Of a stretch of DNA of 64,000 nucleotides, positions 335 through 53,201 are shown in pieces. Position 1 is the stretch's first letter. Every line of letters starts with the position of its first letter. A program made the position numbers and the translations under genes. The DNA is from Sporolactobacillus sp. THM19-2 (GTDB taxonomy: Bacteria; Bacillota; Bacilli; Bacillales; Sporolactobacillaceae): NCBI RefSeq assembly GCF_004153195.1, contig NZ_SEMC01000008.1, positions 1 through 64,000 of the forward strand, given 5' to 3'. The notes beneath the pieces were generated by a model. That model made no database searches and was not told where the DNA came from. It was given only the letters and a program-made list of their open reading frames with translations.

Positions 335-1450
335 TCAGATTGCATCCTTCTTTATGATCAACTGTTTCAGCGTCAGTTTACGCAGCACTTCATCGTTCAT
401 ATCTACCCCTGTCCCTGGTTTGTCTGAAACAGATATATAACCGTTTTTCACCTGTATTTCTGGTTCAATGATATCCTGTTTCCAGTATCGTGATGAGGAA
501 AAAAGATCCCCCGGCAGCGTAAAACCTGGAAGCGAAGCGAGCGCCACGCTGTGAGCCCTTCCTATTCCAAATTCAATCATCCCGCCGCACCAGACCGGAA
601 CGCCATGCTGCCTGCACAGGTCATGAATCTTTACGGCTTCCGACCAGCCGCCGACACGGGCCATTTTAATATTGACGACCCGGCAACTGTTCAGGGCAAG
701 AGCCGCCCTGCAGGCAGCTAAACTGTCAATACTTTCATCCAGACAAATCGGGGTTATTATTTCTTGCTGCAGCCTGGCATGATCTACCAGATCGCGCCAG
801 GCGAAAGGCTGCTCAATCATTTGCAGATGGAATTCATCCATTTTTTTCAGATGATCAAGATCTTTCAGGGAATAGGCAGAGTTAGCGTCTGCCATCAGTT
901 CAGCCTTTGGAAAATGGTGTCGCAGAGCAACAAGCATCTGCAGATCATTTTCACGAGAGATTTTTATTTTGTAGCGTTTATAACCCGCTGCGGAAAGGCG
1001 CTCAATCTGTCGGGCGGCTCTAGATGGATCTGCCTCAGCGATTACCGCTCCGGCTTCTACCCTTTTTCGCGTCGCACCAAACAAGTGACTGATCGAAACC
1101 TCTTTTTCCCTGGCATAAAGATCCCACAGTGCCTGGCTCAGTCCGGACCTTGCCATCTGATTACCACGGACTCGCTTTGAGAGTCTTTCCGCCTCTATTG
1201 GCGTTGTTAGTCTATGCTTTAGAATAAGCGGAATCAGAAAATCCTTCAGCGCGTGCCAGCACGTGGTTATTGTTTCTTCTGTATACCAGGGACTGGTAAA
1301 CGGATCAGCTTCACCCCATCCGACTGCCCCGTCAGAATCACGGATTTCAATGATAATGGCCTGTCGTTTGCCAACCTTCTCGAGATGGGTGATAAACGGC
1401 GTGTTCAATGGCGACTCGATTAAATGCAATGTCACGCTTGACAGATTCAT
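335..1450 (-). CDS. menC: o-Succinylbenzoate synthase MenC
   Basis: Enolase-superfamily enzyme that dehydrates SHCHC to o-succinylbenzoate in menaquinone synthesis; cytoplasmic. At 371 residues it has normal family length. Visible catalytic features are the KIK lysine pair at residues 161-163, metal ligands D188 (ADAN), E213 (IEQPF) and D238 (LDES), and the second catalytic lysine K262 (NIKMAR). It is the last gene of the leftward menF-menD-menH-menC run and its start overlaps the menH stop by 4 bases, so translation is probably coupled. Related N-acylamino acid racemases share this fold, but the men context favours MenC. A second superfamily member in the window (20837-21919) is clearly the dipeptide epimerase instead. 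Confidence 0.9.
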   Translation of the reverse strand: MNLSSVTLHLIESPLNTPFITHLEKVGKRQAIIIEIRDSDGAVGWGEADPFTSPWYTEETITTCWHALKDFLIPLILKHRLTTPIEAERLSKRVRGNQMARSGLSQALWDLYAREKEVSISHLFGATRKRVEAGAVIAEADPSRAARQIERLSAAGYKRYKIKISRENDLQMLVALRHHFPKAELMADANSAYSLKDLDHLKKMDEFHLQMIEQPFAWRDLVDHARLQQEIITPICLDESIDSLAACRAALALNSCRVVNIKMARVGGWSEAVKIHDLCRQHGVPVWCGGMIEFGIGRAHSVALASLPGFTLPGDLFSSSRYWKQDIIEPEIQVKNGYISVSDKPGTGVDMNDEVLRKLTLKQLIIKKDAI

Positions 1451-45881: not shown

Positions 45882-47351
45882 ATGATGGTTGAGGCAACAC
45901 GGGGGCCCGTCCTTATTTTTATGTTCGGAGCCACAGGAGATCTGGCAAGGAGAAAACTTTATCCGGCTCTGTATGAATTATTCAGGAAAGACTATAAATT
46001 TGCCGTGATCGGGATGGCAAGACGACAACATACACATGAATCTTATCGCAGCATGATTGATCGTACACTGAACCCGTCAGCTGATCAACGGAGACGCTTT
46101 CTTAAACGCTTTTATTATCAGCCACTGGATATTGGTAACCCAAATCATTTTGTATTACTGAAAAATATCAGCGATCAGATTGATTCACAATATCACCTGA
46201 AGGGCAACCGTATCTTTTATTTATCGCTTGCCCCGCGTTTTTTCGGAACGGCAACGATTCATTTAAAAAAATCCGGTCTGACTGAAACAGACGGATGGAA
46301 ACGACTTGTGATCGAGAAACCTTTTGGAAATAATCTGGCTTCCGCACGTCAGCTGAACAGTGAATTACTGAAGGTTTTTGATGAATCGGAAATTTATCGA
46401 ATTGATCATTATCTCGGGAAAGAAATGGTTCAGAATATCGAAGCCCTCCGCTTTGCTAATCCGGTTTTTGAATCCGTATGGAATCACCGCAGTATCGCAA
46501 ACGTACAGATCACACTCAGTGAAACTCTCGGCGTCGGCGATCGCGCGAATTACTACGACCAGACGGGTGCCCTTCTTGATATGGTTCAAAATCATATTAT
46601 GCAGCTTCTGACGCTGACAGCGATGGAACCGCCGAGCCAGTTTGATCCGGAAGATATACGTCAGGAGAAGGTTAAAGTACTGAAGTCCATACGTCCGATG
46701 TCACGCGACAATATCGCTGATAAGATTGTTCGTGCCCAGTATAAAGCCGGAGTCATGCCTGACGGAACACGTATAAGCGGTTATCATGAAGAAAATAACA
46801 TCAATGAAACATCTGATACCGAGACCTTCGTGGCTGCACGCTTTTTTATTGATAATTATCGGTGGACAGGTGTCCCCTTCTATATCCGGACGGGAAAGCG
46901 CATGGCAACGAAATGCACGGAAGTCGTGATCGAATTCAAGGATATACCAAACAACCCTTACTTTCATAAGTTTACCCATATCGGTCCCAATCTTCTTGTC
47001 ATTCATATTCAACCGGATGCCGGGCTCTCATTGAAGCTCAATGTCAAGCAGTTCAGTGATGACGGAGAAACTTCTCCTGTATCGATGAATTTCAGCCGCA
47101 CAGGAAAAAGTAAGAACGTCGTGCCTGATGCTTATGAACGTCTTCTTTCTGATTGTCTTAAAGGCGATTCGACCAATTTTACACGCTGGGATGAAGTGGC
47201 CTACTCCTGGGCACTGACAGACTCCATCGTCGCTACCTGGAACAGCGTCCCTCTGGACTACTATGAAGCAGGGACGATGGGGCCGAAATCATCCGACAAG
47301 CTTTTAGCAAAAGATGGATTTCGATGGTGGCCTTTGACACGTATGGAATAA
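45882..47351 (+). CDS. zwf: Glucose-6-phosphate dehydrogenase Zwf
   Basis: First enzyme of the oxidative pentose-phosphate pathway, making NADPH. 489 residues. The coenzyme motif FGATGDLARRKLYPALYEL is at the N terminus, VIEKPFGNNLASA follows, and the active-site RIDHYLGKEMVQNI is near residue 168-180. Start is the ATG at 45882 (or 45885) 6 bases after GAGGG; the TTG frame at 45849 adds 11 residues. The window ends with a gnd gene and also has gapN, so several NADPH sources are encoded here. Confidence 0.96.
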   Translation: MMVEATRGPVLIFMFGATGDLARRKLYPALYELFRKDYKFAVIGMARRQHTHESYRSMIDRTLNPSADQRRRFLKRFYYQPLDIGNPNHFVLLKNISDQIDSQYHLKGNRIFYLSLAPRFFGTATIHLKKSGLTETDGWKRLVIEKPFGNNLASARQLNSELLKVFDESEIYRIDHYLGKEMVQNIEALRFANPVFESVWNHRSIANVQITLSETLGVGDRANYYDQTGALLDMVQNHIMQLLTLTAMEPPSQFDPEDIRQEKVKVLKSIRPMSRDNIADKIVRAQYKAGVMPDGTRISGYHEENNINETSDTETFVAARFFIDNYRWTGVPFYIRTGKRMATKCTEVVIEFKDIPNNPYFHKFTHIGPNLLVIHIQPDAGLSLKLNVKQFSDDGETSPVSMNFSRTGKSKNVVPDAYERLLSDCLKGDSTNFTRWDEVAYSWALTDSIVATWNSVPLDYYEAGTMGPKSSDKLLAKDGFRWWPLTRME

Positions 47352-47368
47352 GTTCATTTCTAAAAAAT

Positions 47369-47412
47369 AAAACAGGTCCGGTGAGTAAATAATGAATCAC
47401 CGGACCTGTTTT
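47369..47412. terminator. Bidirectional terminator between zwf and dat
   Basis: Perfect 16-bp stem (47369-47384 with 47397-47412), loop of 12, with A and T tails. Serves both convergent genes. Confidence 0.9.
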
Positions 47413-47428
47413 GTATTCTCCTTCTTCA

Positions 47429-48283
47429 TCAGGATAATGTTGCCCCTTTCACACGGTTCACCGCACGATCAAAAGCCTCTGCCAGCTTTAATGTGATCTC
47501 TCCAGCTTTTCCGTCCGACACCGGGTGATCATCAATTTGAGTAACCGGTTTGACTTCGTTCCCTGTACTGGTGATAAAGGCCTCATCAGCAGCAAACAGT
47601 TCCTCAAGAGTAAACGTACGTTCAACAACAGGAATATTGAGTTTTGAGGCAAGATCAAGAACGAAAAGTCTGGTGATGCCATTCAATATATAATGATCTG
47701 CAGGATGAGTGATCAGCTTCCCGCCCCGGACGATAAAAACGTTACTTGATGCCCCTTCAGTTACTATATCTCCACGGTGCTGAATTGCTTCTTCCGCCCC
47801 ATTTTCATGCGCCTTTTGTTTAGCCAGAACGTTGCCCAGCAGATTCAGGGTTTTTATATCACAACGCAGCCAGCGAATGTCTTCCGCCAGAACAACTTTT
47901 ATTCCTTCCTCTCTGTGTTTATCACGGGGAAAGAGGGTTGCTGACCCTGTCAGTACTGGGGAAACGCCATCCGGAAAATAATGTTTGCGCGGAGCAGCTC
48001 CCCTCGTTATCTGAAAATAGACCATTCCATCGCCAATTGCATTACGCTTAATCAGCTGCTTCAGGTTATCAGTTAAATTTTCTATACTGCAGGGTAATTT
48101 AATCCTGAGTTCCCGTGCACTGCGTACCAGCCTCTTCATATGTCCTTCTAAAAGGAACATTTGTCCGGAGTACACTCTTATTGCCTCATAAATGCCGTCC
48201 CCAAATTGATAGCCCCTGTCCTCCATGTCCACTTTACCCTTTTCTCTTGGCAACAATTGATTCTGATATAAAATGAATGACAA
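47429..48283 (-). CDS. dat: D-amino acid aminotransferase Dat
   Basis: Class IV PLP aminotransferase that exchanges D-alanine and D-glutamate nitrogen for cell-wall precursors. 284 residues, family length. RGYQFGDGIYEAIRVY, the catalytic lysine in TLNLLGNVLAKQKA, TEGASSNVF and LNGITR are visible. The arginine at DIRWLRCDIKTLN fits the D-amino acid group better than the branched-chain IlvE group. The TTG start has GGAGG 8 bases upstream. Convergent with zwf. Confidence 0.88.
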   Translation of the reverse strand: MSFILYQNQLLPREKGKVDMEDRGYQFGDGIYEAIRVYSGQMFLLEGHMKRLVRSARELRIKLPCSIENLTDNLKQLIKRNAIGDGMVYFQITRGAAPRKHYFPDGVSPVLTGSATLFPRDKHREEGIKVVLAEDIRWLRCDIKTLNLLGNVLAKQKAHENGAEEAIQHRGDIVTEGASSNVFIVRGGKLITHPADHYILNGITRLFVLDLASKLNIPVVERTFTLEELFAADEAFITSTGNEVKPVTQIDDHPVSDGKAGEITLKLAEAFDRAVNRVKGATLS

Positions 48284-49845: not shown

Positions 49846-49965
49846 TTATTTCACTGTACGCCTTTGAACTATTTTATCCTCAATTTTTTCGAGGGCTTTT
49901 TCATTTTGAAGAATTTCTGATTTGTTCTTCAAAACCAGTTCCTTGTAGGTATATTTTTTCCTCAT
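49846..49965 (-). CDS. FbpB-like small basic protein
   Basis: A 39-residue ORF: MRKKYTYKELVLKNKSEI at the start, then LQNEKALEKIEDKIVQRR near the end. It closely follows the pattern of B. subtilis FbpB, a Fur-regulated 48-residue-class basic protein that helps the FsrA small RNA repress iron-rich proteins, including aconitase. GGCGGTG lies 5-7 bases before the ATG and a terminator follows the stop. It is the next gene downstream of acnA in the same orientation. No clear Fur box was found in front of it, so iron control is unproved. Confidence 0.75.
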   Translation of the reverse strand: MRKKYTYKELVLKNKSEILQNEKALEKIEDKIVQRRTVK

Positions 49966-50143
49966 GAAATCACCGCCTTCCTGGCTCTACACATATTGTA
50001 AGCTATTACACGTCATCATCTGATATTGTGTGAATTTTTCATTATATTATGTTATTCCCGAAAAATTCAGTTCTTAAACCCATGATGAAAATCGGGCAGG
50101 AGACATTCTTCAATTTCGAATCTGCACACGAAGGCTCACAGCA

Positions 50144-50170
50144 AAAGGGCTGCCCGCCGGACAGCCCTTT
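50144..50170 (-). terminator. Hairpin downstream of acnA and of the folded element
   Basis: AAAGGGCTG (50144-50152) with CAGCCCTTT (50162-50170), followed on the minus strand by TTTTGC. The T run is short, so it is a weak terminator. Confidence 0.5.
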
Positions 50171-50187
50171 AGTTGAAGAAGATAAAA

Positions 50188-50287
50188 ATGTTTATCCATG
50201 AATCAGATACGACCCCTATCCGTATCCGGCGCTTTCGGGATGCATCGACTAAGTTCGTCTTAGCGATGGAATCCCCGCCATAAACAT
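50188..50287 (-). ncRNA. Candidate three-way-junction structured RNA
   Basis: Outer stem ATGTTTAT (50188-50195) with ATAAACAT (50280-50287). One arm: GATACG (50206-50211) with CGTATC (50221-50226), loop ACCCCTATC. Second, long arm: GGCG, GGGAT, CATCG and CTAAG on the 5' side (50228-50253) pair in order with CTTAG, CGATG, ATCCC and CGCC (50259-50279) around loop TTCGT, with small bulges. About 100 bases fold almost completely. Strand is inferred from acnA reading into it; a DNA-level inverted repeat is the alternative. Confidence 0.5.
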
Positions 50288-50358
50288 GTCAAAACCATTT
50301 CTTTCTTCTCCGGAAATTAGTCTTTCCTTTATGTTAAAAATCATTCAGGAGATTCAAA

Positions 50359-53100
50359 TCATTCATTCTTATTTAATTTCCGGCGTAAGACCATCTGGAG
50401 AATGCCTCCGTTGCGGTAATATTCGATCTCCACTTCGCTGTCGAATCTTACCGTGAGTTCAAACTTCGTTTCTTTACCCTCTTCCGATACAGCTTTCGCC
50501 TGAAGTGTTTGTCCGGGGGTGACTTTTTCGTCAAGATGGATTGTTATTTTTTCCTTTCCATTCAGGCCCAGTGAATCTGCGCTCTCGCCTTTCTTAAACT
50601 GAAGCGGCAGGACGCCCATCATAACCAGATTACTTCTGTGAATGCGTTCAAAGCTTCGGGCGATAACTGCTTTGATGCCAAGCAAATTGGTTCCCTTGGC
50701 TGCCCAGTCACGCGAACTGCCCATGCCATAATCATCTCCGGCAAGAACGACCAGACCGGTGTTGCTTTCTTTATACTTCATTGCTGCATCATAGATGGGC
50801 ATCACTTCATTTGTCGGCCAGTAGGTGGTATAGCCACCTTCTGTTCCAGGGGCGATTTGATTACGGATTCGTACATTAGCAAAGGTCCCACGCATCATCA
50901 CTTCATGGTTGCCACGTCTTGATCCATAAGAATTGAAATCAAACCATTTTACACCCTTACTCAGCAGATATTGCCCGGCGGGACTTTTTTTGGCTATACT
51001 CCCGGCAGGTGATATGTGGTCAGTCGTTACGGAATCACCAAACTTGCCAATAACACGCAGATCTTCAAGCGGTTTGATTTCATTAAGGTCTGCAGACAAG
51101 TGTTTGAAAAACGGTGGATTTTGAATGTAGGTCGAATCCGGATCCCAGTCGTACAACTCTCCCTCACTAGTCTGAATGTTGTTCCAGCGCTGATTTTCCG
51201 TGAAGACGCGGGAATATTCCTTTTTAAACATCTCAGGACTGACCGACCGGTTCATGACTGCATCGATTTCTGCTCTCGAGGGCCAGATATCCTTGAAATA
51301 GACCTCATTGCCATCTTTATCTTTACCAAATGAATCATGCTGCATATCGAAGTAGACCGAGCCGGCAAGCGCAAACGCAACCACAAGCGGGGGTGAGGCC
51401 AGATAGTTCGCGCGTACCAGCGGATGAATACGACCTTCGAAGTTTCTGTTTCCTGATAATACCGCAGCCACCGTAAGATCGCCATCTACGACAGATTTTT
51501 CGACCTCTTCAGGAAGTGGTCCTGAATTACCGATACAGGTGGTGCATCCATATCCGACGAGATTGAATCCGAGTTTTTCCAGATAAGGAGTCAGTCCTGC
51601 CTGTGCCAGATAGTCAGTAACCACCTTTGAACCAGGTGCAAGGCTGGTTTTTACATATGAAGGCACCGACAGGCCCTTCTCGACAGCTTTCTTTGCAACC
51701 AGCCCGGCACCAATCATCACGCTGGGATTACTGGTATTAGTGCAGCTCGTAATCGCCGCGATGACAACCGCACCGGTTTTCAATGTGACCTGACTTCCAT
51801 CCGGATGTGTCACAACAGCCTCTTTATTGATCTCCTCATCACCGAATCCAAACCCGTGATTTCCTGATGGTCTTGTGAGAGAAGCAGCAAACTCTTTTTT
51901 CATCCCGGTCAAAGGAATCCGATCCTGCGGACGCTTAGGCCCGGAAACAGATGGCTGTATCTCTGATAAATTCAGATCAACGACTTTTGTAAATCTTGGA
52001 TCTGCAGCATCTGGTGTATAATACAGATGATTTTCTTTGCAATAATCTTCAACAAGCTGTACCTGTTCCTCAGAACGACCGGTCAGTCGTAAATAATCCA
52101 GAGTCACGCGATCAACGGGAAAGAAAGTTGCTGTTGCACCGTTTTCAGGTGACATGTTTGAAATGGTGGCCCGGTCAGCCAGTGACATGTGAGAAAGACT
52201 CGGGCCGAAAAACTCAACAAACTTGCCGACAACACTCTCTTCACGAAGCATCTGAGTGACACTGAGCGCAAGATCGGTCGCCGTGGTCCCTTCAGGAAGG
52301 CTCCCGGTAATTCGGACACCAACGACATCAGGAACCGGGAAATACGAAGGCTGCCCCAGCATACCCGCTTCTGCTTCGATGCCACCGACACCCCAGCCGA
52401 GAACGCCGAGTCCATTGATCATCGTCGTGTGTGAATCGGTACCGATCAGAGTATCCGGAAAGGCAAGTAAACTGCCGTCTTCTTCTTTTTTATGAAGGAC
52501 AACAGAAGCCAGATACTCCAGATTAACCTGGTGAACAATGCCGGTAGCCGGAGGAACCGCATGAAAATTTTCAAACGACTTCTGTGCCCATTTTAAAAAT
52601 TTATAGCGCTCGCCGTTTCTTTCAAATTCTTTTTCCATGTTGACTTTCAGTGCGTCCGTCGTACCAAAGCGGTCGACCTGCACAGAATGATCCACGACCA
52701 GGTCTACCGTTTTTTCAGGATTGATTTTCTCCGGATCTCCACCAAGATCAGCCATTGCTTTTCTTAAAGAAGCCAGATCAACAACTGCCGGTACACCGGT
52801 AAAATCCTGTAAAATAATGCGTGCGGGATTGAAGGGGACATCAATCCCCTTATTCAGATCATCCGTACCCCATCTTGCCAGATTTTCAACATGTTCTCTT
52901 TTAATAACAACGCCATCACACTGGCGTAAAAGCGCTTCCAGTAATACCTTGATTGAATAGGGCAGGCGCTCAATATCCCCGAACGCTTTCAATGCATCAA
53001 GCTGATAATAGCAATATGTTTTTCCGGCACTCTTAAATGTCTGGCGTGCATGAAACATATCTGTTACGCCTGAAGTCTTTGTTTCCGCTGATGTCGCCAT
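50359..53100 (-). CDS. acnA: Aconitate hydratase AcnA/CitB
   Basis: Interconverts citrate and isocitrate in the TCA cycle with a [4Fe-4S] cluster; the apo form of B. subtilis CitB also binds RNA. 913 residues, cytoplasmic form. Seen are [21 protein letters not shown], cluster cysteines in [13 protein letters not shown] and [25 protein letters not shown], and the C-terminal [16 protein letters not shown] domain with the mobile Arg-Ser site. The ATG at 53100 has AGGAAGGTG 6 bases upstream; a GTG 9 bases earlier overlaps that site. A CcpC-type dyad lies about 100 bases upstream. Confidence 0.97.
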
Positions 53101-53201
53101 GTCATTCACCTTCCTTTAATTATTCAATCTATAAAAGGTTCCTAACTTAATATTAAGGGAATGACTCAAATAAGTAAAATTAAATAATGCGATCCACATT
53201 G

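Follow-up and report, generated by a model that had tools for sequence, protein, structure and literature searches.

The locus

The window (the whole 64,000-nucleotide stretch of Sporolactobacillus sp. THM19-2 DNA analyzed here) belongs to a genome assembly of 3.0 Mb in 70 contigs, G000, which has a same-species sister, G098. On the minus strand of the window, acnA is followed by promoter-like elements, a structured RNA, an intrinsic terminator, and an FbpB-like ORF (Table 1). In the sister genome (locus L054), the aconitase frame, compared with that of the window, is interrupted close to the 3′ end, with a match to residue 174 and one internal stop.

Table 1. Features of the acnA-side RNA locus in the window
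Feature	Position	Strand	Remarks
acnA (aconitase), upstream neighbor	50359..53109	-	
-35-like element GAATG	50342..50346	-	
-10-like element AAGACTA	50318..50324	-	17 nt after the -35; GG immediately ahead; score 9/10
Structured RNA (rod, three-way junction at its apex)	50173..50313	-	Extent is that of the model match
Closing stem P1, 5′ side, GGAGAAGA	50304..50311	-	
Closing stem P1, 3′ side, TCTTCTTC	50175..50182	-	CTTCTTC common to nearly all copies
Long junction arm, GGCGGGGATTCCATCG ... CGATGCATCCC ... GCGCC	50228..50279	-	Like GAGGATTCCATTGG ... CCAATGCATC in relatives
Second, short junction arm	50205..50227	-	
Intrinsic terminator, GC-rich hairpin and T run	50143..50170	-	
FbpB-like ORF	49846..49965	-	PF13040, 44.8 bits; judged outside the element; neighbor in the window species only

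A sequence-only reading of this locus had described a nearly complete three-way-junction fold at 50188-50287, closed by an 8-bp outer stem. The fold is real and better than shuffled sequence, but it is only the center of a larger element of about 140 nt. The 100-nt stretch folds at -34.6 kcal/mol on the minus strand (z -3.0; 1 of 200 shuffles equally good), and its plus strand gives a z of -3.3, also with 1 of 200 shuffles equally good; because both strands beat their shuffles, the strand is not given by folding alone. Taken over about 50313-50175, the minus strand forms a rod of some 140 nt with a three-way junction at its apex, and for 50311-50171 the energy is -48.6 kcal/mol (z -5.1), which none of 200 shuffles equaled. 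The 8-bp stem, ATGTTTAT/ATAAACAT, is indeed present at 50287-50280/50195-50188 of the minus strand, but inside the longer RNA its pair probabilities are 0.0 and its forced formation is 4.2 kcal/mol worse. It is predicted not to form there, its bases going into the rod closed by GGAGAAGA/TCTTCTTC, and the model of the longer RNA keeps both junction arms, the long arm and the short hairpin of the sequence-only reading. The GC-rich hairpin that had been noted at 50144-50170 is also present, as part of the terminator.

Conservation of the structure

blastn with the window RNA against 97 relatives gave, among the matches listed, only short ones (longest, 43 bases; best E, 0.0013), and synteny was therefore needed to locate homologues. 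A related element was found 3′ of acnA in all 15 members of the genus (G000, G098, and G001 to G013) and also in two g7 genomes and one g5 genome, so that 18 of the 26 family genomes have this arrangement (the 15 of the genus plus G017, G019, and G024). The post-acnA copies share a GAAG-type 5′ side, a CTTCTTC 3′ side, and a terminator directly after. Three tandem copies lie 3′ of acnA in g7 (L055, 2152-2769; L057, 827-1438), diverged in sequence and alike in fold, and each of the tandem copies of G019 and G024 comes with a promoter, stems, and a terminator.

A covariance model built from seven copies (R1) and used to search 207 kb recovered eight untrained copies, with E values of 1.2e-10 to 7.5e-5, and gave 13 further, weaker matches (E of 0.05 and above), mostly on antisense strands; it missed the window copy, L042, and most tandem copies. 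Model R2 extended detection to five other genera, whose copies were outside its training set (E per genome, 8.3e-12 to 7.0e-5), and at E <= 1 matched 24 of 26 family genomes, four of them weakly (G000, 0.29; G098, 0.31; G022, 0.18; G023, 0.049). In G008, which R2 missed at this threshold, a diverged copy sits where one is expected (22.2 bits; E, 0.013 over 165 kb), and G015, of the same family, gave no R2 match. The family total is 25 of 26 genomes, 24 by the model and G008 by position and structure.

Covariation in the family is strong. In a 15-sequence alignment, 84.5% of cells pair, compared with 75.9% in shuffled and at most 51.9% in slid controls, and double changes occur at 33 pairs (18.5 in shuffles); as with the next alignment, these figures come from sequences fitted to the structure derived from seven copies and are biased towards it. 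With 20 sequences, 84.8% of cells pair (73.3% shuffled; at most 52.0% slid), double changes are seen at 42 of 62 pairs where 26.4 were expected from shuffles, and covariation is 0.345 compared with 0.183, with 0 of 500 shuffles as good in each measure taken singly, although kin sequences may beat shuffles without structure. The structure is still supported, both by the slid controls and by the recovery of copies in untrained genera. A separate script alignment analyzed with RNAalifold returned the same core, namely, the closing stem, CGG/CCG, and GGAGA/TCTCC, from 33 of 45 copies (the 12 omitted were 9 near-identical copies and 3 others). A MAFFT alignment of 11 copies with RNAalifold had misplaced the inner stems, yielding 19 pairs, none with double changes, and was replaced by the covariance-model alignment. 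Base pairing is conserved in the closing stem, the rod, and the apical three-way junction, in elements of 135 to 190 nt, and the compensatory changes that the covariance-model alignments reveal in relatives bear out the earlier proposal of a structured RNA between acnA and the terminator.

The window copy is the most diverged family member found. It scores 21.7 bits with R2 (E, 0.29 per genome; the sole match at E <= 1 in G000) and 25.7 bits with a further model, R3, when the 64-kb window is searched (E, 0.0035). Matches on the antisense strands of true copies score up to 33.9 and 34.8 bits, above the score of the window copy, and its membership is therefore not carried by score alone. That it probably belongs to the family is also suggested by its place after acnA, its promoter, a closing stem with CTTCTTCAA, an arm GGGGATTCCATCG...CGATGCATCCC corresponding to GAGGATTCCATTGG...CCAATGCATC in relatives, and its terminator.

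Elsewhere in the window, a long palindrome at 47344-47429 lies between convergent G6PD-like and class IV aminotransferase genes and ends in CTTCTTCAT. It is probably a two-way terminator; its weak match to R3 (E, 0.63) was taken as chance.

Distribution and neighboring genes

In six genera, a copy lies away from acnA (G014; G016 and G023; G018; G020; G021; G022), and the neighbors there include clpP-, rlmH-, galE-, and arginase-like genes, named from their translations without a family search. Most family genomes carry one copy; G022 has two, and G019 and G024 have the three in tandem. The nearest named aconitase to that of the window is from Scopulibacillus darangshiensis (82% over 198 residues). 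G020 is this organism, with a 100% identical aconitase and the RNA at the same place in the contig, and NCBI places it in the family Sporolactobacillaceae. At its locus L041, the acnA terminator is followed by a tandem-repeat array with units of roughly 55 to 60 bases.

The RNA also occurs in a second family of Bacillales, f20. An even draw of 397 genomes of the order gave 16 R3 matches at E <= 0.05, 13 in the home family and 3 in f20, under stricter filters that lost G000 and 12 of the 15 f20 genomes found by a core pattern. This pattern matched 16 of the 397 genomes (G014 and all 15 sampled f20 genomes), and the reversed pattern, used as a control, matched none. In the three f20 loci read, the RNA adjoins an argH-like gene; f20 aconitases are at best 76 to 79% like those of Heyndrickxia (nine queries, 80 named loci). 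A class-wide draw yielded one match in 398 genomes, itself a member of the genus. Among 25 genomes reached via named loci, Scopulibacillus was the sole match at E <= 0.1, the other 24, including eight Fictibacillus, a Listeria, and a Staphylococcus, having none at that threshold. The exact core pattern, which also does not fit genus-type copies, was absent from the viral contigs searched, and a plasmid search with the G014 copy as sole query found nothing similar.

These data bear on what kind of element the RNA might be. It had been proposed to be either a riboswitch-like structure linked to fbpB or a processed small RNA of the acnA 3′ untranslated region (UTR), its position suggesting a connection with FbpB and FsrA. 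By tblastn, FbpB was adjacent in only 2 of 38 loci, both from the window species, over loci that reach about 0.8 to 1.5 kb past the RNA and beyond which a farther fbpB is possible. Neither the riboswitch-like link nor the FbpB/FsrA connection is supported by this count. An origin in the acnA 3′ UTR alone is also unlikely, given the RNA's own promoter-like sequence, its occurrence away from acnA in six genera of the family and in f20, and the terminator-like hairpin that acnA itself has ahead of the RNA in g5 locus L063. More generally, we consider it very improbable that the RNA is a cis element, whether of acnA mRNA (as a 3′-UTR stabilizer or processed 3′-UTR RNA) or of fbpB (as a leader or riboswitch). 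Such a role would fit the RNA's position after acnA in most of the family, and a separate acnA terminator was not seen ahead of it in the window, but the conserved promoter-like sequence, the copies at other loci, the rarity of an adjacent fbpB, and the terminator between RNA and fbpB all argue against it.

Copies scattered at unrelated loci had been named as the sign of a MITE-like repeat. Loci do differ in this way across genera, but within genomes the element is mostly present once. That it is a palindromic mobile repeat is largely contradicted, and we regard this as extremely improbable: the differing neighbors and the tandem copies of G019 and G024 would be in keeping with mobility, but the promoter and terminator are conserved, one copy per genome is the rule in the family, and blastn found no second copy in G000 (next best match, 37 bases; E, 0.073).

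A promoter of probable forespore type

Upstream of the RNA, the copies share the pattern GHATR, N17/18, CANNMTA. A promoter score of 9 to 10 out of 10 was obtained for 41 of 45 copies (9 for the window copy), compared with 2.6% of shuffled upstream sequences, and a score of 10 for 23 of 45, compared with 0.11% of shuffles; the copies counted are related, not independent, and the GHATR pattern was derived from them. In 43 of 45 copies, the -10 element precedes the start of the RNA by exactly 11 nt, and in 38 of 45, GG is found within the four bases ahead of the -10. Terminators follow all copies whose downstream sequence was read.

The comparison with σF and σG promoters used their general consensus letters. 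Genes for small acid-soluble spore proteins (SASPs) are classic σG targets. Among 18 SASP loci, 8 have GHATR-N17/18 together with at least six of the seven -10 positions, the start codon being set too far upstream in several others; at SASP loci of the genus, the same promoter elements were seen in 5 of 6, both figures being without a chance control. The GG and a spacing of 14 to 15 nt (the σF register) resemble σF promoters. For PsigG, PMC5942855, as far as its text was available, gives a spacing of 14 nt in 14 of 15 Bacilli, with 15 nt more common. We infer that the promoter of the RNA is of the forespore σF/σG type.

A possible reading frame in the junction

In 42 of 45 copies, a GGAG-like site is followed after exactly 9 nt by NTG (GGAG in 38 and a near variant in 4; TTG as start in 39, ATG in 2, and CTG in 1). 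The exceptions are the window copy, that of its sister G098, and G010, in which the spacing reads ten. At junction stem columns 52-131 and 53-130, the G is fixed while its partner alternates between C and U. On this basis, the RNA might be translated in the forespore into a tiny protein, or might have a dual function, with the GGAG of the junction stem as a sequestered ribosome site and TTG as the start. The fixed gap and the constant G with its drifting partner would fit such a role, and a forespore sigG mRNA with a non-ATG start and a ribosome-site hairpin is described in the available text of PMC5942855. Conversely, the peptides listed, of 8 to 22 residues, are dissimilar across genera, the window copy and G098 lack the signal yet keep their stems, and the fold itself may fix the spacing. 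Because of the dissimilar peptides and the loss of the signal in the window with its stems intact, we rank the small reading frame second and consider it unlikely, although a purely noncoding RNA would leave the GGAG-N9-TTG signal unexplained. A more speculative possibility, to which we give even less credence, is that the ribosome site is locked in the three-way junction and that translation of a throw-away TTG peptide, rather than its product, opens the rod and determines the activity or decay of the RNA in spore formation or germination; the window species would then have lost the start signal and kept a permanently folded version.

A candidate forespore small RNA gene

The explanation that we favor, with a probability of roughly 0.7, is that the element is a free-standing small RNA gene representing a new family of forespore small RNAs. 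The two features sought in the sequence for such an RNA, a σF/σG-type promoter and a structure with compensatory changes, were both found. The gene would be transcribed in the forespore by σF and/or σG RNA polymerase, and the transcript would run from beside the closing stem to the terminator, a compact RNA structured over nearly its whole length. In the acnA arrangement, the RNA could also end acnA read-through transcripts. Since the neighbors change between genera, the RNA may act in trans during spore formation, perhaps, though we are less sure of this, by binding a protein or by pairing once the rod opens. Overall, a role in spore development appears likelier than one as a switch controlling the adjoining iron-related gene.

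For CsfG, the best-known forespore small RNA, the mRNA target had still not been identified as of 2022, according to the part of PMC9147052 available. The RNA family added here, which covaries strongly and has a readable promoter, was seen in 25 of the 26 genomes of one bacterial family and in all 15 genomes sampled from a second. The results also correct the earlier view that a riboswitch occupies the acnA-fbpB gap. The RNA is present in culturable spore formers, which are open to tests of its expression, its structure, and the effect of its deletion.

Comparison with known RNAs

None of the 4227 families of Rfam 15 matched the window at the gathering score; below it, ten matched at E <= 10, with a best E of 0.78. 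Across 20 loci, the sole match at the gathering score was Bacillaceae-1 in L043, outside the RNA, and a subthreshold match, to STnc40 in L063, reached 25.1 bits against a gathering score of 45 (E, 0.035). Eight loci compared with Rfam 15 at E <= 0.1 gave only 6S RNA in L144 and a tRNA in L160, both beside the RNA. The L043 match (RF01690, 67.9 bits; 1127-1194, minus strand; genome G012) lies downstream of the acnA RNA. Term searches of two surveys turned up neither Sporolactobacillus nor aconitase, acnA, or citB in one (PMC8632094) and no aconitase in the other (PMC2864571), and a literature search, with most subscription papers and the CsfG paper outside its scope, found no description of this RNA. 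Absent from Rfam 15 at the cutoff, the family appears to be a new one of a known kind.

The FsrA/FbpB iron-sparing system of Bacillus subtilis shares with this RNA the acnA and fbpB neighbors, in the window species alone. FsrA is listed at ykuI-ykuJ (PMC3574147, in part); the fbpB neighborhood is not conserved, and the promoter here appears to be of forespore type. 6S RNA is, like this one, a long rod-shaped RNA gene of similar length, but the RNA described here has an apical three-way junction, and the large central bubble is not predicted for it. The sole match to 6S RNA (RF00013) at E <= 1 in G000 is at C18 (77.9 bits), with none at this RNA.

A close parallel in kind is CsfG, whose place is the ylbH element (RF00516) and which is 136 nt long (PMC3574147, in part). 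An above-threshold match to RF00516 lies elsewhere in G000 (C61, 67.2 bits), with none at this RNA. CsfG of B. subtilis and the RNA described here are similar in size and intergenic. CsfG is CU-rich in its loops, according to the same text; in the RNA described here, the CU-rich segment, CTTCTTC, belongs to the closing stem. Forespore control by σF and σG has been reported for CsfG (PMC9147052, in part), and the promoter pattern suggests that the acnA-side RNA is under the same control.
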